From an uncultured Opitutales bacterium (GTDB taxonomy: Bacteria > Verrucomicrobiota > Verrucomicrobiia > Opitutales > Intestinicryptomonadaceae): a stretch of 32,029 nucleotides of DNA. Made by a program: the position numbers and the translations under genes. A model generated the notes under the pieces. It did no database searches. It was not told the DNA's origin and saw only the letters and a list, made by a program, of their open reading frames with translations. The stretch covers positions 1 to 32,029 of the forward strand of contig CALXLN010000059.1 in the NCBI GenBank assembly GCA_944389215.1, written 5' to 3'. Position 1 is the stretch's first letter. Each line of letters opens with the position of its first letter. This document shows positions 5,879 through 31,301 of the stretch, one piece after another.

Positions 5879-6913
5879 TTAGGGAAATTTTGACGGGTTG
5901 GTAAAAAAGCTCTTGGCGTCTCTATGCGAAATTCCCTGCATGTTTACATATCTGGAACGCAGCAGGGAATGGTTGCGATGTCCCATGTTAATTTGAAGCC
6001 TGGAAAGGTCTTTAAAAAGTTTTGCGTGGTGGCTGGCGTAGGTATGCCTGAGTATGTCTTGAATCCAAAGGCCCTTAAACCCGGAGGCGTCGCGTATGTT
6101 CTTCCAGCGCCTGGACCAATTCGGGGGGCAGATATAATCGTTGGGCTGCATCTTGCACGGAAAGAGCTTGGATTTTAAAGCCGGACAAATTTCAATTTGC
6201 CTTACGCCGCCGGTCTTTGAGCATACCGAGCGCACCGTAATGGAGTTTTCTGCAAAGTCTATATCCCGCCATTTCATTCTTTTTATCTCGCATGGACGCA
6301 CTCCCGCGAGAACCAGTATTGCAACCGCCGGCAGACAGGCGCGGAATTTGTCTTTTTGGGCGGTGTTTAATATACATTTTGTCTGGGCTAATGAAAGCGG
6401 CTTTATTTCATTTTCTATTATTTTTTTTCTTTCCACAAGCTTGACTGCGTTTTTATCGCACCATTCTCTCCGCAGTGCGAATTCAAACAGGCCGTGAAGC
6501 ATTGTGCGCGCTTTGTTGTATTGGGAGGGCGTGTGGAATGCAAGGGATATGGCGGTTTCGCAGTCCGCTGCTGACAGGTCGGAAAAATTTCTGCATGAAA
6601 ATTCGGAATTGGTTTTTAATATTTTTTGCCCTAAATATTTTATGTCTTTAAAAGAATCCGGCCGCAAATGTCTTTTTGATTCCAAATACAGCATAAATCC
6701 GTTTTTCAGGGACATTTCTTTTGTTCTCAAATTGCGTTTTCCGGTTTCGATGATTCTTGAGCAGAATTCTATGTCCGAAAGGTTTGATGCAGCAGGTTTA
6801 AAGTCTAGAATGTTCTTTACCAGCCTTGCTGCGTCGAGTATGGATATTGAAGTGCTTTCCAATAAGGTTGCTGCCGATGAAACTTCGTTTGTCATGGTAT
6901 TGATAATACTCAT
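5879..6913 (-). CDS. Tyrosine recombinase / integrase
   Basis: The protein has 344 residues. The first half is a helical core-binding (SAM-like) domain, with QYNKARTMLHGLFEFALRR near 131-149. The catalytic domain follows: Arg206 in AGVRPCEIKRMKW, Lys233 in SKTGG, the box LRHTYASH with Arg289, His312 in MGHRN, and the nucleophile Tyr322 in RSRYVNM. The residue three before Arg289 is Asp286, where most family members have His. Family members cut and rejoin DNA through a 3'-phosphotyrosine link. No excisionase, phage or conjugation genes accompany it, so it is an orphan. It is divergent from the giant beta-helix gene at 7138 (224 bases between starts) and convergent with the PEP-CTERM gene upstream. 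A decayed copy of its C-terminus sits at about 27935-28065. Target site and job are unknown. Confidence 0.9.
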   Translation of the reverse strand: MSIINTMTNEVSSAATLLESTSISILDAARLVKNILDFKPAASNLSDIEFCSRIIETGKRNLRTKEMSLKNGFMLYLESKRHLRPDSFKDIKYLGQKILKTNSEFSCRNFSDLSAADCETAISLAFHTPSQYNKARTMLHGLFEFALRREWCDKNAVKLVERKKIIENEIKPLSLAQTKCILNTAQKDKFRACLPAVAILVLAGVRPCEIKRMKWRDIDFAENSITVRSVCSKTGGVRQIEICPALKSKLFPCKMQPNDYICPPNWSRRWKNIRDASGFKGLWIQDILRHTYASHHAKLFKDLSRLQINMGHRNHSLLRSRYVNMQGISHRDAKSFFTNPSKFP

Positions 6914-7024
6914 GTCAACATAAAAATCTAAAATATTTTGGAAGTATTTGAAATTAATTTTGTTATATGCCGATACATTTTACCATAAAAGCAGTTTTTA
7001 AAAAATATATAAGGAAATTATATT

Positions 7025-7073
7025 CTGTAATTTGTTATATATTAGAAGGTTGTAAATAAAAACAAGATTACAG
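7025..7073. repeat. Inverted repeat around the promoter of the giant beta-helix gene
   Basis: CTGTAATTTG at 7025-7034 is matched in inverted orientation by CAAGATTACAG at 7063-7073, with one extra base in the second arm. The second arm falls between the proposed -35 and -10 boxes, and the first lies just upstream of the -35. This layout suits an operator, or less likely recombinase binding arms. Confidence 0.45.
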
Positions 7074-7079
7074 TATTAT
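7050..7079 (+). promoter_or_regulatory. Possible promoter of the giant beta-helix gene
   Basis: TTGTAA at 7050-7055 and TATTAT at 7074-7079 are 18 bases apart in a strongly A+T-rich intergenic region. The start codon lies about 50 bases after the expected start of transcription. A strong Shine-Dalgarno, GGAGG at 7126-7130, precedes ATG 7138 by 7 bases. Confidence 0.4.
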
Positions 7080-7137
7080 CAATACCATAGCATCCTTACT
7101 TCAATTAAGTTTTAATGGAGTTTTTGGAGGCTACCAA

Positions 7138-10100
7138 ATGGGAAATAAATCTGTAATTAATCTGATAACAAGAGGAACTGGTATTGCTCTTGTAAATCTA
7201 TGCGTCTGTGCGGCGACGTTGGCAAATGATTTGCAGGGAGGCAGTTCTATCAATATAGACGGAGAGGAATATAAAGGCCAGCGCGTAGTAACCGGCGAGG
7301 ATGTATATGGCGCTGGTTTGGCTTTGGTTCAAGCAAAAGCTGGGGCCTCTTTAAATGTTGTAAATTCGACTTTTGAAAACAACTACGCAAAGTCTAACAA
7401 TACCGCCAACGGCACTTACGGCGTTGCGGTTTCCGCAACCGGTGCGAATGAAGTGGCAATGGACGCTGCGAAATTCAACTCCAACCAGGTTGAATCTGTC
7501 AGCCAGACTCAAGGCGTAGTTTACATAAGCGGAAGCGAAAATGTTTCCATAAAAAACTCGGAGTTTGTTTCAAATAAGGCGGGTGTCGAAGGCGGAACGT
7601 CTTATTCTGCGGGGGGAGCTTTATCCCTTTGGGGAAACAAAGCCGCGCTGGTTGAAAAAACAAATTTTGAAGGCACCCAAACCAACGGCGACGATTGGGC
7701 CGACGGCGGCGCATTGTACGCGCGCGGCGCAACTTGGGGCGGATACGAGCCGTCTTCCTTGTTGGTGAAAGATTCCAGCTTTTCCAACAATACGTTGCAG
7801 TCGGCGACATCTTCGAGAGGCGGCGCTTTGTTTTTAAAGTCCGACGGAAATTCCAACACACTGGAGGGCGAAATTGTCGACTCCGCTTTTACGGGGAATA
7901 AGTCCATTACCTTGGATGCCGAAAACGCCTACGGAGACCAAGGAGGCGGGGCAATATACAATGAAAGCTCCAAATTGAAAATTACGGCAAATAAAAACAT
8001 AACAAATGTTGGAAACTCTGTCGTTGTAGGCGGCAACAGCGACGACTCTAGGGGCGGATTTCTTTATATGTACAGCGGAGACAGCGGCAACGGCGCGCCC
8101 TCGACCGAGTTTGCAGTCGCTGAAAACGCAACTTTGACGATAGGCGACGGAACCGCCGGGCAAGATTCCATTGCCTCAAACGACTCAAATTCGTCTATAA
8201 CCAAAACCGGCGCCGGCACTCTTACTGTAAATTCTTCAATGGCGCACTATAAAGGAGCGCTGAAGGTTGCCGAAGGGGTCATGAATTCCAATAACGGGCT
8301 GTCGTCGGAAAATATAAATGTCGCCAGCGGGGCAACTCTAAATTCCGACAAGGGAACGTGGATCGGAATTGAGAGCCAGGCGTCGTGGTCGAACATTGAA
8401 TATTATCCGACCCCCATTGCGGAAGTTTCCGCCGGCGGAAGCTTGAATTTAAGCAACGCCACATTGAAGGACAACTCATTCATCCACAACGGCTCGCTGG
8501 CTTCTGGCGTGGGCTCGAAAGGTGCTATATGGGTAAACGGCGGCTCTTTGTCCGTGTCGGATTCTTTGATATCCGGAACGGAGTCTGTAACAAATCCGGG
8601 CGACAAAGATTCTTGGAACAGCACGCCGAATGCTCAGGGCGGCGCCATTCTATTTAACGGCGCCACAAGCTCGGGAACATTTTCAAATGTTGAAATCTCT
8701 AATAATTCCGCCTCTGCGATGAGCGTTCAAGGCGGAGCGGTTGCCGCTTTCGGCGGTAACTATAAAATCGAAAACGGAACTTCGTTTGCGGGAAATAAAG
8801 CCGTGGGACTTGAAGGCGCGACATCTTCCATCAGCGGCGGCGCAATTTACGCGACCGACAGTTGGAGCGACGGCAATATAATTCTCGACATCTCCGACGC
8901 CTCATTCACAGGCAATAGCGCCGAAGGCAAAATATCGAACGCCGGCGCCATAATATACGAATCCTACAACGAAGGCTCCGGCCTGACCGTGAAAGACACT
9001 GTGTTTGCCGGCAATTCCGCCAAGGCTGAAACTCGGGCGGAAGGCGGCGCTTTGAGAATATTTACAACTTCTTCGGCTGAAAAAACAGTGTTTAACGACG
9101 TCGTATTTACGGGCAATACCGTGGAGGTTGCCTCCCCGGAAGACACCCTCAGAAACGGCGGCGGCGCAATTTACGCAAACGCTTCGGATCTCGTTTTCAA
9201 TGTTTCCAAAGACGCCTCGTTTAGCGGAAATTCAGTTGCCGTCGGCGGCGAAAAATCCGACTATTACGGCGGATTCTTGAGGCTTGCCAGCTATAATGGA
9301 GAAGGCTCATCTTCAGAATTCAACGTTTCCGGCGGCGCTACCCTTACGATAGGCGACGGAACCGTCGGGCAAGATTCAATCGCGTCGACAGATTCAAATT
9401 CGTCTATAACCAAAACCGGCGCCGGCACTCTTGCCGTAAACGGCTCGATGAAGGACTTTACGGGAACTTTGAGCGTTACAGAGGGCACTATGAACGTTAA
9501 CAACGGTTTGGGCGCAACTAAAACGCTTGTCGACAATTCCTCCGCGAATATATCGGGCGCAAGCCTGTCCGGACAAAACTATGTTAGCAAGGGCGAATAC
9601 GGTTCAAGGCTTGCGCTGGTTGAGGCGCGCAACAATGCGCATCTTACAATTTCCGATTCGACATACTCCAATAATTCTGCGGAATATAACTTGAGCGATG
9701 TCAACGGTGTTTACGGCTCAGTGGTGTCCTCTACGGAATCGAGCACTTCCATAAAGAATACAGTTTTTGAAGGCAATACAAACTCCACAACCGCCCAGGT
9801 CCAAGGCATTGTGTACCTTAGCGGCGGAGATATGGAAATAGAGTCTTCAATCTTTAAGGGCAATGAAGGAAACGGCGGGGTAAACGCGACGGGCGCGGCA
9901 GTATCTACTTACGGCGGAGAACTTATTATATCGGGAACAACATTCGACGGCAATGTCGCAAACAGCGACGCCATGGCCCGCGGAGGCGCCTTGTACGGCG
10001 ACAATTACGCTCAAAGCCAAAACGGGACAATCATAACTGTTTCCGATTCGGTGTTTATAAATAACAAAGCCGTGTCGCAAAACGACGCTTGGGGCGGCGC

Positions 10101-11316
10101 CGCGCAGATAAGTTTTGCAAACGCAGACAACGGTTCGCTGACTTTCAAGGACACTGTATTTGCAAACAATACTGTCGAGGCTACCGCAGCCTCCGGAAAC
10201 GCTTTTGGCGGAGCGGTGGGTTCGCGCCGCGCGGATGTAACCTTTGAGGTCTCGGAGGGGAAACATATCGTAAACACGGGCAATTTGGCGATTGTAAACG
10301 GCGCGGCAAGCGACGCAAACGGCGGTTTCCTGTATATGCACAACGATACGGCTTTCCAAGAGGGCGGAAGCCGCTCTACCGCCACCTTCAACATAGCCTC
10401 CAACGCCAGCATGACGATAGGCAACGGCGCCGACGGATACGATTCCATTGCCTCCAGCGATTCAAACGCCGCAATATCAAAACTCGGCGCCGGCACTCTG
10501 ACCGTAAACAGTTCCATGGAATATTTTACGGGTTCGCTGTCCGTCAACGAGGGCGTCATGAGCGTCAACAATAAACTTGGCGCAAGCGGCATCGCAATTG
10601 CCAGCGGCGCAACGCTGGGTTTGAAAATCGGAGGCGAAAATGTACTCTCCAACGCTTCTTTAACTTCCGAGAACTTTTCAAACCAGGGAACGCTCGTGCT
10701 TTCCGCAAGAGCCGGCGTTTTGTCCGGGGACTATAATATTTCAGCGGGGGGAATTTCCGATTACGGAAACGTGAAAGCCTACGGAGGCTCTGTTGTGGGC
10801 GGAGTATTTAAGGCTTCCGAAGCAAAGCCGCTGTACATAGATATTCCCGGCGATCCTGTAACTGTTGTAAACAACGGCAGAGTTGCTCTCACTGACGGAT
10901 TTACACCGGACGTAAAAATCGAGATGGCCTTTAATAGCGCATCCGCAACTGTAAACAGCGTAAATACCACAACCGACAGCCTTAAGCAGGCGATAGGTTC
11001 GGATTTCAGCGCGATTGGCGCGTATGCGTTTGACGCGGTTATGGATTCCGGGGATACGGTGGTTCTCAGTTTCTTGGTCGGGGACTCTGCACTAAAAGCA
11101 TCCGATTTTACGGTGTACCGCAAGTCGTCCGGGGGAACTTGGGAAAAGGCCGACAATATCGACAATATCGAATACGACGGCGAGTATCTTTCATTCATAG
11201 TTTCCCACTTCTCCGAGTACGGTTATGCGGCAGTTCCCGAACCCGCTGCGCTGGCCGCTGTTTTGGGAGCCTTGGCGCTTTGCTTCGCGGTTTCGCGCAG
11301 GCGCGCGGGAAGGTAA
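7138..11316 (+). CDS. Giant three-module beta-helix PEP-CTERM surface protein
   Basis: The protein has 1392 residues and a signal peptide (cleavage near CAATLA/ND, residue 30). It is made of three long blocks with right-handed beta-helix character: many short motifs such as GGAI/GGAL, FSNN, FTGN and GGFLYM, which resemble chlamydial polymorphic outer-membrane repeats. Each block ends in an autotransporter-associated beta-strand repeat with GAGTLTVNSSM, at about residues 332-382, 735-785 and 1092-1142. The tail is VPEP, a hydrophobic helix and SRRRAGR (residues about 1366-1392), a PEP-CTERM sorting signal, instead of an autotransporter barrel. So it is probably exported and then processed by an exosortase-like enzyme, although no such gene lies in this window. 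An adhesin or coat role is inferred. It is divergent from the recombinase. The ATG has a strong ribosome binding site, and hairpins and a terminator follow. Confidence 0.85.
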   Translation: MGNKSVINLITRGTGIALVNLCVCAATLANDLQGGSSINIDGEEYKGQRVVTGEDVYGAGLALVQAKAGASLNVVNSTFENNYAKSNNTANGTYGVAVSATGANEVAMDAAKFNSNQVESVSQTQGVVYISGSENVSIKNSEFVSNKAGVEGGTSYSAGGALSLWGNKAALVEKTNFEGTQTNGDDWADGGALYARGATWGGYEPSSLLVKDSSFSNNTLQSATSSRGGALFLKSDGNSNTLEGEIVDSAFTGNKSITLDAENAYGDQGGGAIYNESSKLKITANKNITNVGNSVVVGGNSDDSRGGFLYMYSGDSGNGAPSTEFAVAENATLTIGDGTAGQDSIASNDSNSSITKTGAGTLTVNSSMAHYKGALKVAEGVMNSNNGLSSENINVASGATLNSDKGTWIGIESQASWSNIEYYPTPIAEVSAGGSLNLSNATLKDNSFIHNGSLASGVGSKGAIWVNGGSLSVSDSLISGTESVTNPGDKDSWNSTPNAQGGAILFNGATSSGTFSNVEISNNSASAMSVQGGAVAAFGGNYKIENGTSFAGNKAVGLEGATSSISGGAIYATDSWSDGNIILDISDASFTGNSAEGKISNAGAIIYESYNEGSGLTVKDTVFAGNSAKAETRAEGGALRIFTTSSAEKTVFNDVVFTGNTVEVASPEDTLRNGGGAIYANASDLVFNVSKDASFSGNSVAVGGEKSDYYGGFLRLASYNGEGSSSEFNVSGGATLTIGDGTVGQDSIASTDSNSSITKTGAGTLAVNGSMKDFTGTLSVTEGTMNVNNGLGATKTLVDNSSANISGASLSGQNYVSKGEYGSRLALVEARNNAHLTISDSTYSNNSAEYNLSDVNGVYGSVVSSTESSTSIKNTVFEGNTNSTTAQVQGIVYLSGGDMEIESSIFKGNEGNGGVNATGAAVSTYGGELIISGTTFDGNVANSDAMARGGALYGDNYAQSQNGTIITVSDSVFINNKAVSQNDAWGGAAQISFANADNGSLTFKDTVFANNTVEATAASGNAFGGAVGSRRADVTFEVSEGKHIVNTGNLAIVNGAASDANGGFLYMHNDTAFQEGGSRSTATFNIASNASMTIGNGADGYDSIASSDSNAAISKLGAGTLTVNSSMEYFTGSLSVNEGVMSVNNKLGASGIAIASGATLGLKIGGENVLSNASLTSENFSNQGTLVLSARAGVLSGDYNISAGGISDYGNVKAYGGSVVGGVFKASEAKPLYIDIPGDPVTVVNNGRVALTDGFTPDVKIEMAFNSASATVNSVNTTTDSLKQAIGSDFSAIGAYAFDAVMDSGDTVVLSFLVGDSALKASDFTVYRKSSGGTWEKADNIDNIEYDGEYLSFIVSHFSEYGYAAVPEPAALAAVLGALALCFAVSRRRAGR
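8131..8285 (+). repeat. Module-end repeat 1 of 3 (beta-strand repeat)
   Basis: This copy encodes the TIGDGTAGQDSIAS ... GAGTLTVNSSM segment. Copies 2 (about 9341-9495) and 3 (about 10411-10565) are in the same frame. Copies 1 and 2 share long identical DNA stretches, for example the run encoding SNSSITKTGAGTL, while copy 3 is more diverged. Confidence 0.8.
9341..9495 (+). repeat. Module-end repeat 2 of 3 (beta-strand repeat)
   Basis: Second copy, 1210 bases after copy 1. DNA identity to copy 1 is highest across the SNSSITKTGAGTL-encoding part, which suggests recent duplication or gene conversion. Confidence 0.8.
10411..10565 (+). repeat. Module-end repeat 3 of 3 (beta-strand repeat)
   Basis: Third copy, 1070 bases after copy 2. 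It has AAISKLGAGTLTVNSSM in place of SSITKTGAGTL and is the most diverged at the DNA level. Confidence 0.75.
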
Positions 11317-26186: not shown

Positions 26187-27899
26187 TCATTGGCCTTTTT
26201 CGGATACCGACAGCACATACATTCCCGCATCCGGAGACTTGCGTGAAGCTTGCAAGTGCAGATAGGAAATTCCTATCGGGGCTTTGCGCGAGATTTTGCA
26301 ATCGGAGATTTTTTTGCCGCCGCCAAAAAGCTCTGCCTTGCCGGTATCGGCGTCGAATTTTAGAACTAGCTCCTGCGTTGAGCCATTGCCGAACGATTCT
26401 GGAATTTCGGCAGAAAACAGCGCGTAATTTTCGGCGAATTCATCCGATGGATTTATCCAGCGGTCGTGGAGCATAATCTTTGCCCCCTTAAATCCTGATG
26501 GAATTTTAACTTTAAGTTTAATTTCGCCTTTTCGCGCCATTGGAAAATTCCAGACCGCCCCGCGCAAGTCGCTGACGAGCGAATCGTCGGGGGTATATTT
26601 TAACAGCAGGCATTTTTTGCCGGGCGAATCGGGGTTTTCCGCCAAATTGCAGCCTTCTATTCTGTCGTAGGCGCAATGTCCCTTAATTCCTTTTTTATAG
26701 TTGAATACGCTCCAATCGTCCAAGCCGTTTGAAAAGTCGCATTCGCGGGAATTTTCAAGAAGCCAATTGACGTCAAAAAGCACGAGCCTTCGGTGCAGTT
26801 TATTTTGCCCGATTGAAGCCAAAATTTTTCCGGGCGCAACCTCGATAAATTGCGACTGGTGGACGCTCTTGTCCATCCCGGGAGTTGAAGAAAAGTCCGC
26901 AGCGTTGCGGCGCGGGTCGAGCAGTACCTCGCGAAATCCGCGCCAAGTTTTGCCGTCGTCGTCGGAAATAGCGGCGTGGATTGCGCTTCTGTTTGTAAAC
27001 ACGTCCTCCCAGACGCCGTTTGCTCCTTCCACTTCGGGAAGCGCGGTGCAGTTCGACCACATCAGCATAAGCCGTCCGTCAGAAAGGCGTTTTATTTTTG
27101 GCATTACGCAAGTCCCGTAGAAGTTTGTTGGGACAGGCTTGCTCCAATTCAAGCCGCCGTCGCTCGAATAAGACTGCCAAAGGTTGTCAAGCGACGTGCG
27201 CAGGATGGTCCAAAGCCTTCCGTCTTTTAGACGGACAGCAGTGGGTTCCATGGCGTCGTGGTTCCAGCGCGTTCCCTTGTGCAGGCCGCCAGCTTTGTGG
27301 TGCGGCACATTCAAACGGCTCGATTTCTTCCATGTTTTGCCGAAGTCGTCGCTTATGAGAAAAATCGCCCCAAATACGAAGTCGAAATTTTGCGAGCTTG
27401 ATGTCCTCAACGTAACGGGCATCAGAATGCGCCCGTCGATTACCAGCGGTTCCGCGTTGAGTTCCATCCACCAAGGGCATATTTGCGTTTTTTCGACAAA
27501 CTCTCCGTTTGTTCCGCAGTCGAAAAACCAAGCGCTTTCGCCAATATTTAAAATATTAAAATATCTTCCGCGGGACTCGTCGAAAAATACGCCGAATTCT
27601 TTCCCTTTCGGCGCTTGTATTTGGCTCCAAGTAAAACCTCCGTCGGAGGACTCGATATACATTCTATTTGAAACCTTGCTATGCGAGCCCGGCATTAAAT
27701 TTTCTGCCTGCCCTCCATAATTGTAATGGCGTATTTTTCCGTCGGGAGTTTTGCAAAGTCCGAAGCCGGCATCGGCAGGTGGGATACCTACAATCGTCGG
27801 CGAATATATGTCATCCAACGACTTCGCCGCGCTCGCTGCCGCCGAACACGCGGCAAACAATAATATTCCTCCAATTCCATACATATTGATATTTATCAT
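26187..27899 (-). CDS. Exported sialidase-like BNR protein with C-terminal carbohydrate-binding-type domain
   Basis: The protein has 570 residues from ATG 27899; ATG 27884 is also possible (MYGIGGILLFAACSAAASAA, a signal peptide). A frame reaching 28004 runs back into the recombinase remnant and would bury the signal, so it is rejected. Residues about 35-385 form a sialidase propeller with four Asp boxes: SSDGGFTW near 83, SDDFGKTW near 185, SSDGGLNW near 244 and SDDDGKTW near 309. Blade motifs such as EPTAVRLKDGRLWTILR near 223-239 and MPKIKRLSDGRLMLMW near 262-277 fit. The segment RRLVLFDVNWLL near 370 ends the propeller; the last 190 residues form a beta-sandwich with no clear family name. 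GH33-like enzymes free sialic acid or related sugars; the substrate here is unknown. Confidence 0.78.
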   Translation of the reverse strand: MININMYGIGGILLFAACSAAASAAKSLDDIYSPTIVGIPPADAGFGLCKTPDGKIRHYNYGGQAENLMPGSHSKVSNRMYIESSDGGFTWSQIQAPKGKEFGVFFDESRGRYFNILNIGESAWFFDCGTNGEFVEKTQICPWWMELNAEPLVIDGRILMPVTLRTSSSQNFDFVFGAIFLISDDFGKTWKKSSRLNVPHHKAGGLHKGTRWNHDAMEPTAVRLKDGRLWTILRTSLDNLWQSYSSDGGLNWSKPVPTNFYGTCVMPKIKRLSDGRLMLMWSNCTALPEVEGANGVWEDVFTNRSAIHAAISDDDGKTWRGFREVLLDPRRNAADFSSTPGMDKSVHQSQFIEVAPGKILASIGQNKLHRRLVLFDVNWLLENSRECDFSNGLDDWSVFNYKKGIKGHCAYDRIEGCNLAENPDSPGKKCLLLKYTPDDSLVSDLRGAVWNFPMARKGEIKLKVKIPSGFKGAKIMLHDRWINPSDEFAENYALFSAEIPESFGNGSTQELVLKFDADTGKAELFGGGKKISDCKISRKAPIGISYLHLQASRKSPDAGMYVLSVSEKGQ

Positions 27900-27934
27900 A
27901 ATATTAAAATTATCTGCGCGACCTATGTCTGTCA

Positions 27935-28065
27935 ATGGGTTTATCCGCGCATGCTGACATATCTGGAGCGCAGAAGTGAAAGGTAGCGATGCCCCATAGT
28001 TCATTGGGGATACTTAAGCCAAGTGGACTTGCAGTGAGTCAAAGTCCTAGCGTATTTTTCTCTGG
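27935..28065 (-). pseudogene. Decayed C-terminus of a tyrosine recombinase
   Basis: Read on the minus strand this stretch gives MGHRYLSLLRSRYVSMRG, almost the same as MGHRNHSLLRSRYVNMQG of the recombinase at 5879-6913, including the catalytic His and Tyr (Tyr codon at 27961-27959). It continues past a stop with TH, as the intact gene has SH. Upstream of MGH the match is weaker and broken by a stop and indels, but an Arg-Thr pair near 28048 can be aligned with LRHT. The first 280 or so residues of a recombinase are missing. It lies just upstream of the plus-strand beta-helix gene and just before the sialidase start. Confidence 0.8.
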
Positions 28066-28103
28066 GTAAAGGAATATGGATGTCTATGATAAATATAATC
28101 ATA

Positions 28104-28132
28104 TTGACATATATAACTACGTTTGCTCAAAT
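28104..28132 (+). promoter_or_regulatory. Possible promoter of the duplicated beta-helix gene
   Basis: A perfect TTGACA at 28104-28109 and TCAAAT at 28127-28132 are 17 bases apart in a strongly A+T-rich stretch. The leader to ATG 28255 would be about 115 bases. Confidence 0.35.
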
Positions 28133-28254
28133 TTATTTACTCCCAATTAAAAAGTAATTATCGCATAATGCGCTAAAATTTTTTTTAGATCATGCAGTGT
28201 TTTTAATCTACTGGAGAATAGACTTTTATTATAACTTTGAGAATAAATATAGAT

Positions 28255-31050
28255 ATGAAATCGTTTAAAGTATTATTAAGCTTTTTCTTGTTAACATCAC
28301 AGCTTTGGGCTACGCAGATTTTCTATGTAAAAACTGCTGAGTATGGTGGAAACGATTCCAATGATGGCAGATCTTGGTCAACTGCATATGCCGATGTGCA
28401 AAAGGCAATAGATGCGGCGGCAGAGATAGCAACAGAGGCAGAACCCGCGCAAGTATGGATAGCAAAGGGTACATATACAGATGCTGGTGGATTTATTTTT
28501 ACAGCGTATGTAATGAGAAACAACGTAGAAATCTACGGCGGTTTTGCTGGGACTGAAACAAAACTAGAAGAACGAGTAAGCGGAAATGAAACAATTCTTA
28601 CAGCAACTGGAAATTATGTGTTTTATAACAGCTATTCGCCTTCCAACAAGCTTACAAATACAGCAAAGCTAGATTCTGTAACGATACTGAGAGGGAGAAG
28701 CGGAGGTATCTGTATCTATAACTCCTATGCTAGTCCTACGATCACGAATTGCACGATTTCTGGAAATGGCAGCGGTATCTATAACTCCTATGCTAGTCCC
28801 AGGATCACGAATTGCACGATTTCTGATAATCATTATGGCATCAAAAACTTGAACTCCTCAAGTCCGATGATCACGAATTGCACGATTTCTGGGAATGGTT
28901 ACTATGGCATCTACAACTCCTCCTCCAATCCCACGATCACGCATTGTACGATTTATGGGAATGATGGCGATGGCATCTACAACTTGAGCTCCTCAAGTCC
29001 GACGATCACGAATTGCACGATTTCTGATAATGCTGGCAACGGCATCTCCAACGGTTCATCCGGTACTATGATCATAAATTGTACTATTACTGAAAATAAA
29101 GAACAAGGAATTTCCAACACTTCTTCTAGCCTAATGATCATAAATTGCATAATTTGGGGAAATACTTTACAGCAAATATACAATTCTTCTTTTTATACAC
29201 CAATTGTATCATACTGTGTAATAGAAGGTGGATATTCAAGCGGCACAAACATAATTACAGAAGATCCACTGCTTGGAGAGCTTGGGAATTATGGAGGATC
29301 TGTTTATACAATTATAATAGCAAAGGGAAGTTCTGCTATTGGGAAAGGAACATCATCAGGAGCTCCAGAAGAAGATGCCAGAGGTATAATGCGTTTAAAT
29401 CCGCCATGTATAGGAGCCTTTGAAGCATCTACTGAAATTCCAACAGCAGTTTCGATAGTTGCAAAAGAAGTAATTATAGTAGGTAAAGAAACCGAAGTGA
29501 TAGCTTATAGCGATGGGAATCCAGATGAGTATATATTGTATAAAGACGGGGTAGAAATAGCGCGACAAGATACAAATGTCTTTAAGATAACTCCAACTGA
29601 AAGTGGATATCATAAATATTCAGTAGGTATTATTTATGATGGCAATATAATAATGTCAAAAAACATAAAAGAAGTACGGCAAATTTTAGGGAATATTATA
29701 TACGTAAAAGAAGATGGCAACGATTCAAGATCGGGAGATTCTTGGGATAATGCGCTTTTAGATGTGCAAAAGGCGATAGATGCGGCAGCATCACTTGCAA
29801 CAGACGTTAAACCGATACAAGTATGGATAGCAAAGGGCACATATACAAATGCTGGCGGAATATACAATTATTCTACGGAACTAAATACAACATATGCAAT
29901 GAGAAACAACGTAGAAATCTACGGCGGTTTTGCCGAGACTGAAACAAAACTAGAAGAACGAGTAAGCGGAAATGAAACAATTCTTACAACAACTGGAAAT
30001 TATGTGTTTTATAATTCATCAATTAATAATACAGCAAAACTAGATTCTGTGACTATAACTGGTGCGGTAAGCAGCGGCATCTCCAACTCCTTCTCAAGTC
30101 CGACGATAACGAATTGCACGATTTCTGGGAATGATTGCTGTGGCATCTACAACTCCTCTTACTCCAATCCCAGGATCACGAATTGTACGATTTCTGGGAA
30201 TGGCAGCGGTATCGACAACTCCTCCTCTGATCCCAGGATCACGAATTGTACGATTTCTGGGAATGATGGCGATGGCATCAACAACTGGAGCTCCTCAAGT
30301 CCTACGATCACGAATTGTACAATTTTTGGGAATGCTGGCAATTGCATCTACAACTCCTCCTCAAGCCCGACGATCATAAATTGTATAATTTGGGGAAATG
30401 CTTCGCAGCAAATATACAATTATTCTTCTTCAACATCTATTGTATCATACTGTGTAATCAAAGGCGGATATCCAGACGGCACAAACATAATTACAGAAGA
30501 TCCCCTACTTGGAGAACTTGGTAATTATGGTGGCTTTGTTGATGTAATTCCAGTTTTAAAAGGAAGTTCAGCTATCGGAGCAGGAACCACTGGAGAAAAT
30601 ATTCCTACAACAGATGCACGTGGAGTGAATAGAGCAAATCCGCCAACAATAGGTGCGTATGAGTATTTTGTTCAAACTTCCTTTGACGTATGGGCGCAAG
30701 ACAACAACCTAACAGGCGAAAACGCAAAGCCTGAAGCTATGCCGCATTCAGATGGCATAACAAACCTTGAAAAGTTCACCTTTGGCTTGGATGCCTCAAA
30801 GGCTACAAGTTATGCGGAAAGTGGGCTATTTAAGCAGATAAGCTACGGAACAAATGTAAGCTTCCAGTATCCTGTAAATAAGGCGGCAACAGATGTGGCG
30901 GTTAAAGCGTTAGTTTCTGAAGACCTTGTTTACTGGACAGAAGCCACAGCCACAAAATCAGGCGAGTCAGGCAATATGAACATCTTTGAAGTAAAAAAGC
31001 CAATCCCAGAATCTGGCAAATTGTTCTTCAAAGTGGAGGTAAATCAGTAA
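28255..31050 (+). CDS. Exported beta-helix protein made by internal duplication
   Basis: The protein has 931 residues from ATG 28255; TTG 28237 would add six and no strong ribosome binding site decides. A signal peptide ends near LWA/TQ. Two similar halves follow, at about residues 21-390 and 480-800. Each begins with a YVK...ND...SW..A..DVQKAIDAA segment, then VWIAKGTYT, then MRNNVEIYGGFA, and then a block of parallel beta-helix coils with ITNCTISGN repeats (about 20-23 residues each; residues about 152-305 and 605-722). An Ig-like segment (about 391-478) separates the halves. The C-terminal 125 residues have DGITNLEKFTFGLD, a pattern seen at the end of many Verrucomicrobiota exported proteins. 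The fold is that of pectate-lyase-like and POMP-like proteins; binding or lyase activity is not shown. It is A+T-rich compared with the rest of the window. Confidence 0.8.
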   Translation: MKSFKVLLSFFLLTSQLWATQIFYVKTAEYGGNDSNDGRSWSTAYADVQKAIDAAAEIATEAEPAQVWIAKGTYTDAGGFIFTAYVMRNNVEIYGGFAGTETKLEERVSGNETILTATGNYVFYNSYSPSNKLTNTAKLDSVTILRGRSGGICIYNSYASPTITNCTISGNGSGIYNSYASPRITNCTISDNHYGIKNLNSSSPMITNCTISGNGYYGIYNSSSNPTITHCTIYGNDGDGIYNLSSSSPTITNCTISDNAGNGISNGSSGTMIINCTITENKEQGISNTSSSLMIINCIIWGNTLQQIYNSSFYTPIVSYCVIEGGYSSGTNIITEDPLLGELGNYGGSVYTIIIAKGSSAIGKGTSSGAPEEDARGIMRLNPPCIGAFEASTEIPTAVSIVAKEVIIVGKETEVIAYSDGNPDEYILYKDGVEIARQDTNVFKITPTESGYHKYSVGIIYDGNIIMSKNIKEVRQILGNIIYVKEDGNDSRSGDSWDNALLDVQKAIDAAASLATDVKPIQVWIAKGTYTNAGGIYNYSTELNTTYAMRNNVEIYGGFAETETKLEERVSGNETILTTTGNYVFYNSSINNTAKLDSVTITGAVSSGISNSFSSPTITNCTISGNDCCGIYNSSYSNPRITNCTISGNGSGIDNSSSDPRITNCTISGNDGDGINNWSSSSPTITNCTIFGNAGNCIYNSSSSPTIINCIIWGNASQQIYNYSSSTSIVSYCVIKGGYPDGTNIITEDPLLGELGNYGGFVDVIPVLKGSSAIGAGTTGENIPTTDARGVNRANPPTIGAYEYFVQTSFDVWAQDNNLTGENAKPEAMPHSDGITNLEKFTFGLDASKATSYAESGLFKQISYGTNVSFQYPVNKAATDVAVKALVSEDLVYWTEATATKSGESGNMNIFEVKKPIPESGKLFFKVEVNQ
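28513..28629 (+). repeat. Long direct repeat, copy A
   Basis: This 117-base stretch, encoding MRNNVEIYGGFA to NYVFYN, matches 29899-30015 with about four differences, a spacing of 1386 bases (462 codons), in frame. Confidence 0.85.
28740..29160 (+). repeat. Beta-helix coil repeats, block A
   Basis: About seven tandem units of 60-69 bases encoding (S)PTITNCTISGN-type coils, with a conserved core ATCACGAATTGCACGATT. Units become more diverged near 29060-29160 (ATCATAAATTGTA). Confidence 0.8.
29899..30015 (+). repeat. Long direct repeat, copy B
   Basis: Second copy of 28513-28629. The region around 30430-30530 likewise matches 29190-29300 (YCVI-GGY...NIITEDPLLGELGNYGG), so the whole half was duplicated. 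Confidence 0.85.
30100..30400 (+). repeat. Beta-helix coil repeats, block B
   Basis: About five tandem units of 60-69 bases with the same ACGAATTG(C/T)ACGATTTCTGG core as block A, at about 30106, 30175, 30238, 30307 and 30373. Confidence 0.8.
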
Positions 31051-31111
31051 GATTGCCTGAAATATTCCTCCCAAAAACAAAAGATGGTGCATGCTTATGT
31101 GCCAATTCCGT

Positions 31112-31136
31112 CGCCAACTTGAGGTGCCAAGTGGCG
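31112..31136. other. Hairpin after the duplicated beta-helix gene
   Basis: CGCCAACTTG (31112-31121) pairs with CAAGTGGCG (31128-31136), with one bulge and a short loop. No T run follows, so it is not a clear terminator. The rest of the 31051-31301 gap is A+T-rich with no supported gene. Confidence 0.35.
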
Positions 31137-31301
31137 GTTGCAGTTTAGTTGCACGTCTGGTGTGCTCGGTCTTCTTTTGAACTTTAATAATCAAACAATT
31201 AAAAATAGGTGTGTTGTCTTATGAATAAGATAAGTTAATATTTCTTATATTAAGATAATTAATTAGTTATTTATTATATCATGTAATTTATGTAATTATC
31301 T

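Follow-up and report, generated by a model that had tools for sequence, protein, structure and literature searches.

The question raised by this locus is why, twice within one stretch of DNA, a tyrosine recombinase or the remnant of one lies on the minus strand beside a large divergent gene for an exported protein on the plus strand. The window, meaning the whole 32,029-nucleotide stretch that was analysed, corresponds to contig 59 in the 2.4-Mb draft genome (80% complete) of an uncultured Opitutales bacterium. An earlier note on this DNA took the arrangement, which is indeed found at both loci, for a mobile or recombining cassette of recombinase and displayed protein. This loose idea gives way here to a more concrete one, namely that the recombinase, together with the ~190 bp upstream of it, acts as a phase-variation promoter switch for the divergent surface gene, a reading to which sequence comparison lends a probability of about 0.9. 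The intact locus comprises the following features.

5879-6913, minus strand: tyrosine recombinase, the proposed invertase; 344 aa as an ORF, Pfam Phage_integrase E=2.2e-8
6897-6909, no strand: recombinase-side recombination site GTATT-GAT-AATAC, from a motif search
6913-6918, minus strand: -35-like TTGACA at the recombinase end of the segment, pointing away from the cargo in the assembly
6897-7085, no strand: putative invertible segment of 189 bp including both sites, proposed from the inverted sites, their matched asymmetric core and an orientation that differs between related copies elsewhere
7073-7085, no strand: cargo-side recombination site GTATT-ATC-AATAC, from a motif search
7086-7093, plus strand: -10-like stretch CATAGCAT outside the segment, at a place with a TATA-like consensus across 39 invertons
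7138-11316, plus strand: proposed switched gene for a 1,392-aa exported protein with autotransporter-type repeats and a PEP-CTERM-like tail

Translation of the recombinase is likely to start in reality at the ATG at 6895, which lies just beyond the recombination site. Residues R206, K233, R289, H312 and Y322 are kept in nearly all of 32 aligned recombinase copies, in which the first box II position is occupied by D in place of H. The protein has the same catalytic domain as XerA, XerC and XerD (NCBIfam XerA 43 bits; PDB 5hxy, E=0.0076), but falls far below the cut-offs of these families, and no dif site is involved here. The product of the divergent gene matches autotransporter/PATR repeats and contains no Pfam beta-helix, so that the description of both large neighbours as beta-helix proteins holds for the one encoded at 28255-31050 (Pfam Beta_helix, E=2.9e-64) and not for this one. 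Positions 6925-6960 of the segment contain a palindrome-like stretch, ~CAAATACTTNCAAAGTATTTT, which is common to many segments, sits ~20-30 bases inward of the TTGACA end and is possibly the site of an accessory protein. Folded as single-stranded DNA, the switch region shows chiefly the pairing of the inverted repeats, which adds nothing further.

The host genome holds four further full or partial copies of the recombinase, and about 40 copies, fragments included, are found across the 19 genomes of the bacterial family. The association suspected from two examples turned out to be general, since the first upstream gene is divergent in 30 of the 31 family copies with upstream sequence, typically across a gap of 140-280 bp, against 33% (131/399) of background genes with a divergent neighbour; the corresponding probability of ~6e-14 is an arithmetic guide only, the copies being related. 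In the lone exception, L062, a short doubtful ORF comes first and the divergent gene lies beyond it. The earlier note named an excess of divergent beta-helix or PEP-CTERM genes beside the recombinases as support for its idea, and for PEP-CTERM genes such an excess is present (11/29 divergent neighbours vs 17/455 background ORFs, Fisher p=5e-8). Other divergent neighbours encode autotransporter-like proteins, lipoproteins, glycosyltransferase-like proteins, a kinase and small P-loop proteins, product guesses which, the kinase apart, were made by reading the sequences. The predicted targets of the switch are PEP-CTERM, autotransporter and other mostly surface genes, and the genes downstream of the recombinase copies are mixed and often convergent. 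A tRNA attachment-site reading was rejected, as in an ARAGORN search the window proved free of tRNA genes, and so did the surroundings of most copies.

Between recombinase and divergent gene, two 13-bp GTATT-NNN-AATAC sites are present in 31 of the 31 testable copies, which, being related, do not amount to 31 independent events; a few of the pairs carry one or two mismatches. Outside these 31, a complete pair is missing from two damaged loci (L011 and L075) and from one at a contig end (L071). One site lies at the recombinase start codon and the other 140-179 bp upstream, near the start of the cargo, with spacings often near 162-168 or 172-179 bp. The asymmetric 3-bp cores differ between loci, with at least 11 triplets (GAT, TAG, GAG, CAG, ACG, AAG, TAA, TGG, TAT, GCC and CCT), whereas within a locus they are exact reverse complements in all 31 recombinase-linked pairs and in 9/9 orphan pairs that lack a local recombinase, as judged within the stretch taken around each pair. 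Matched inverted asymmetric cores are what a tyrosine recombinase needs for inversion of a segment. An exact-pattern search of the 19 family genomes returned 37 pairs, spread over 13 of them; in the 353 other genomes of the order there were no pairs, and a reversed control pattern gave zero pairs everywhere in the same genomes. Eight of the nine orphan pairs have a PEP-CTERM gene directly downstream of them, and one genome (G008) has two site pairs and only a fragment of the recombinase. Adjacency, co-occurrence, shared range and the intact active site suggest that the recombinase acts on the neighbouring sites. No shared attachment sequence of the kind proposed in the earlier note was found at the far end of the cargo; what the copies have in common is an inverted pair of sites between recombinase gene and cargo, a layout that argues for inversion of the promoter and ON/OFF switching. 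At L011:6471-7634 a second, distantly related integrase lies divergently beside the C35 recombinase copy, from which the cargo-side site has been lost; an island may have inserted into the switch module there.

Comparison of diverged copies indicates that segments occur in both orientations. The spacers of L062 and L070 align when one is inverted (z=11.7) and not directly (z=0.3), as do those of L062 and L063 (7.3 vs 0.2) and those of L067 and L076 (7.0 vs -0.3), the latter two loci occupying the same chromosomal site in two species. The recombinases of L062, L070 and L063 are 81-88% identical at the DNA level, their spacers aligning only after one is reversed. TTGACA, or a sequence one base off, is found 8-10 bases from the site within one end of nearly every segment, and only in two recombinase-linked loci, L062 and L076, does it lie on the cargo side, which agrees independently with the reversed spacers. 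Both orientations are thus seen by comparison of related loci in L062/L070 and L067/L076 as well as, by the position of a TTGACTT, in the Akkermansia-side pair L177/L178. The consensus immediately outside the cargo-side site reads TATAT, and the site plus three bases makes a 16-base spacer; the matching place on the recombinase side is occupied by the start codon (CATGGACAA) and lacks a -10. A -10-like match of at least 4 of 6 positions is present on the cargo side in 72% of cases vs 41% in shuffles, a moderate enrichment, and the box is weak at the intact locus of the window. With the -35-like TTGACA inside the segment and the -10-like box outside it, the promoter is probably assembled by flipping.

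It is proposed that the recombinase binds the two inverted sites and flips the segment between them, which carries TTGACA near one site, while the -10-like box stays outside near the divergent gene. In one orientation, presumably ON, the two halves of the promoter would join and drive the surface gene, the site itself making up most of the 16-18-bp spacer between the -35-like and -10-like elements. In the other, presumably OFF, TTGACA would face the recombinase start codon, where it finds no -10. By this logic the window's intact locus appears to be OFF in the assembly, and the stretch at 7086-7093 would pair with TTGACA once the segment is inverted; across 40 loci the predicted assembly states are 4 ON, 34 OFF and 2 unclear. 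Related modules would control many genes of the family, some of them in trans without a local recombinase.

Alternatively, the paired palindromes could be looping operators of a repressor, perhaps the recombinase itself, that governs the divergent promoters with no recombination. Palindromic sites between divergent genes, at spacings that recur near the two ranges given above, would suit such operators; these need no matched asymmetric cores, however, and here the cores vary between loci yet match within the locus in 40/40 pairs, while related spacers are found in opposite orientations, so this explanation is regarded as very improbable. Still less credence can be given to an integron-like platform, in which a recombinase with a divergent promoter has cassettes inserted beside it. 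The recombinase does diverge from variable cargo and bears a weak similarity to the NCBIfam integron integrase, but its score is 22.7 bits against a family cut-off of 265, there is usually one large gene and no cassette array, and both sites flank the promoter segment and not the cargo; the integron reading was rejected on this score and because no repeats of the recombinase end are found at the cargo ends. A mobile cassette in which recombinase and surface gene move together or recombine, thereby swapping surface proteins, is improbable as well, although near-identical units with different neighbours do occur within one genome. Two copies in one near-complete genome, L052 and L053, have 1,278 bp in common at 97% identity with different neighbours on both sides, and in L083/L084 and L077/L080/L081 the divergence begins right at the recombinase stop codon. 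The L052/L053 identity also ends at that codon and, on the other side, near the ribosome-binding site of the cargo, so that the copied unit consists of recombinase and switch without cargo. Moreover, the inverted sites predict inversion and not excision, and a search for direct repeats between the recombinase end and the far end of the cargo gave nothing convincing. Such copies indicate that recombinase and switch can be copied to new genes. The supposed spread of the recombinases is accordingly borne out, whereas the swapping or remodelling of surface proteins finds no support. The 97% identical units lie at L052:9245-10520 and L053:9452-10729, their cargo and downstream genes being different. 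No empty site was found with hisI and the U32 peptidase gene, two conserved genes, as flank markers, because synteny is poor.

The promoter-switch reading also offers an account of the second locus, for which three features can be listed.

27944-28006, minus strand: remnant of a second recombinase from this family, corresponding to its 3' end; nhmmer E=6.8e-11, tblastn 24 aa at 67%
28007-28254, no strand: presumed former switch region, its recombination sites gone
28255-31050, plus strand: presumed former cargo, encoding a 931-aa beta-helix, choice-of-anchor Q protein with a Beta_helix match

The resemblance of this remnant to the C-terminus of the intact recombinase, noticed in the earlier note, is confirmed. 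A DNA profile made from the other recombinase copies, with the window copy left out, matches positions 27998-27944 of the minus strand (envelope 28007-27924) at the E-value listed, whereas the best match in 20 shuffled windows has E=0.72; the same profile matches the intact gene at E=2.4e-230. The remnant (27935-28006) corresponds to the last ~20 codons of the recombinase and spans the last conserved motif with the tyrosine nucleophile (MGHRYLSLLRSRYVSMRG, then stop), nothing being left upstream of this motif. It lies 250-310 bp from the start of the divergent beta-helix gene. The interval 27935-28254 also holds the upstream region of a minus-strand sialidase-like gene (26187-28004), whose signal-peptide start lies near 27899. 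From 27,557 to 29,107 of the window, nothing matches a site at 8 or more of its 10 positions, and for this reason the second locus is not a live switch. The decayed-module reading is supported by the beta-helix protein, the first 163 aa of which are 52% identical to the cargo of L063, an intact module in another species. As no site survives there, it has to be inferred, and is considered likely, that the second locus is a decayed switch module upstream of the beta-helix gene, the remnant being what would be left of a second module that lost its sites and with them its switching. An origin of 27935-28006 as the end of another mobile element, or as a fragment from some other event, is unlikely; short 3'-end fragments of the recombinase without a clear module do exist elsewhere (L017 and L085, the former beside a different integrase), but the E-value rules out a chance match, position and orientation are those of intact modules, and the beta-helix neighbour resembles the cargo of one.

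Two further observations concern the borders of these elements. L017:1-550 (G000:C118) is 96% identical to a stretch from another species (L048) in which a different integrase is accompanied by the final 78 bases of the recombinase gene; the 3' end of that gene may serve another mobile element as its border. Just past the beta-helix gene of the window, at 31103-31229, lies a repeat of ~130-180 bp that is 75-83% identical to sequences in L012, L013 and L048, the L048 copy adjoining a tRNA-Ser; as the other end of the element it was rejected, being found at four places only and absent from the far ends of most modules.

A genus that appears to be Akkermansia is rich in homologs of the recombinase, at about 29-43% identity; its assignment follows from the 16S primer sequence cited in Akkermansia papers, which occurs in 3 of the 23 genomes, with three copies in each of two closed ones. 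In Akkermansia muciniphila the published inverted-repeat motif of invertons is CGGATT..AATCCG (PMC13343947, after Jiang et al. 2019), assigned to inverton group 138, and its invertons are enriched near PEP-CTERM genes (PMC11892184). The cps1 inverton, a capsule switch, flips in culture and in mice, and the main text of the paper describing it makes no mention of a recombinase or invertase (PMC13343947); among the papers covered, systematic inverton-invertase links are reported in Clostridia and Bacteroidia only (PMC11892184). Pairs of the CGGATT type were found in 13/23 of the Akkermansia-like genomes, at up to 35 per genome and with zero in the control, and 18 of 18 inspected pairs (CGGATT-NNN-AATCCG, sites 154-180 bp apart) have matched inverted cores. 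A pair lies just upstream of a recombinase homolog in L155, L170 (one mismatch) and L152 (CGAATT arms), and no local pair was found at most of the sampled Akkermansia-side homologs. In many Akkermansia-side pairs TTGAC adjoins one site, and TTGACTT is at opposite ends in L177 and L178, which precede the same acyltransferase gene in two different genomes. No -10-like box is obvious at these sites, and therefore the split promoter is proposed for the Opitutales family only. In a de novo pair search at the Akkermansia-side loci the reversed-sequence control was an invalid null, as reversing keeps the pairs, and the count was ignored.

The two systems share phylum, homologous recombinases, palindrome-core-palindrome sites with matched inverted cores and PEP-CTERM genes as targets (PMC11892184), but differ in their arms (CGGATT/AATCCG vs GTATT/AATAC) and order, and in that the recombinase is usually directly beside the switch in the Opitutales family, unlike in Akkermansia. 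Membership in the CGGATT..AATCCG invertons was rejected, the motif here being GTATTNNNAATAC, in favour of a sister system. Homologous recombinases and equivalent sites place the switch in a known kind, the Verrucomicrobiota invertons, with a candidate invertase here that is also a candidate for the Akkermansia invertons. A more distant parallel is Tsr19/BF2766 of Bacteroides fragilis, a tyrosine recombinase that inverts a local and a distant promoter controlling surface structures (PMC4747536); it belongs to another phylum, acts on another promoter type and is set against the present family by mechanism and not by sequence or repeat motif. A literature search, with most subscription journals outside its coverage, returned no paper in which Opitutales and invertons are both named. 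What is new is the lineage, the motif of the sites, a recombinase family tied to this motif, a probable trans network and a probable split promoter. The proposed switch is met with about 40 times among related gut bacteria and in Akkermansia. For the uncultured Opitutales of the gut, the findings point to a widespread network of phase variation that acts on PEP-CTERM proteins and other proteins of the surface. It may tentatively be suggested that a self-contained, copyable module of recombinase and half-promoter settles upstream of unrelated genes and imposes ON/OFF control on them, with the recombination site serving as spacer between -35 and -10 and cross-talk limited by a 3-bp core specific to each locus, and that the same recombinase family is the missing Akkermansia invertase. 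Among the Akkermansia-like genomes, one of 2.2 Mb (G531) carries the 35 CGGATT-type pairs, about twice as many as the next genome sampled.
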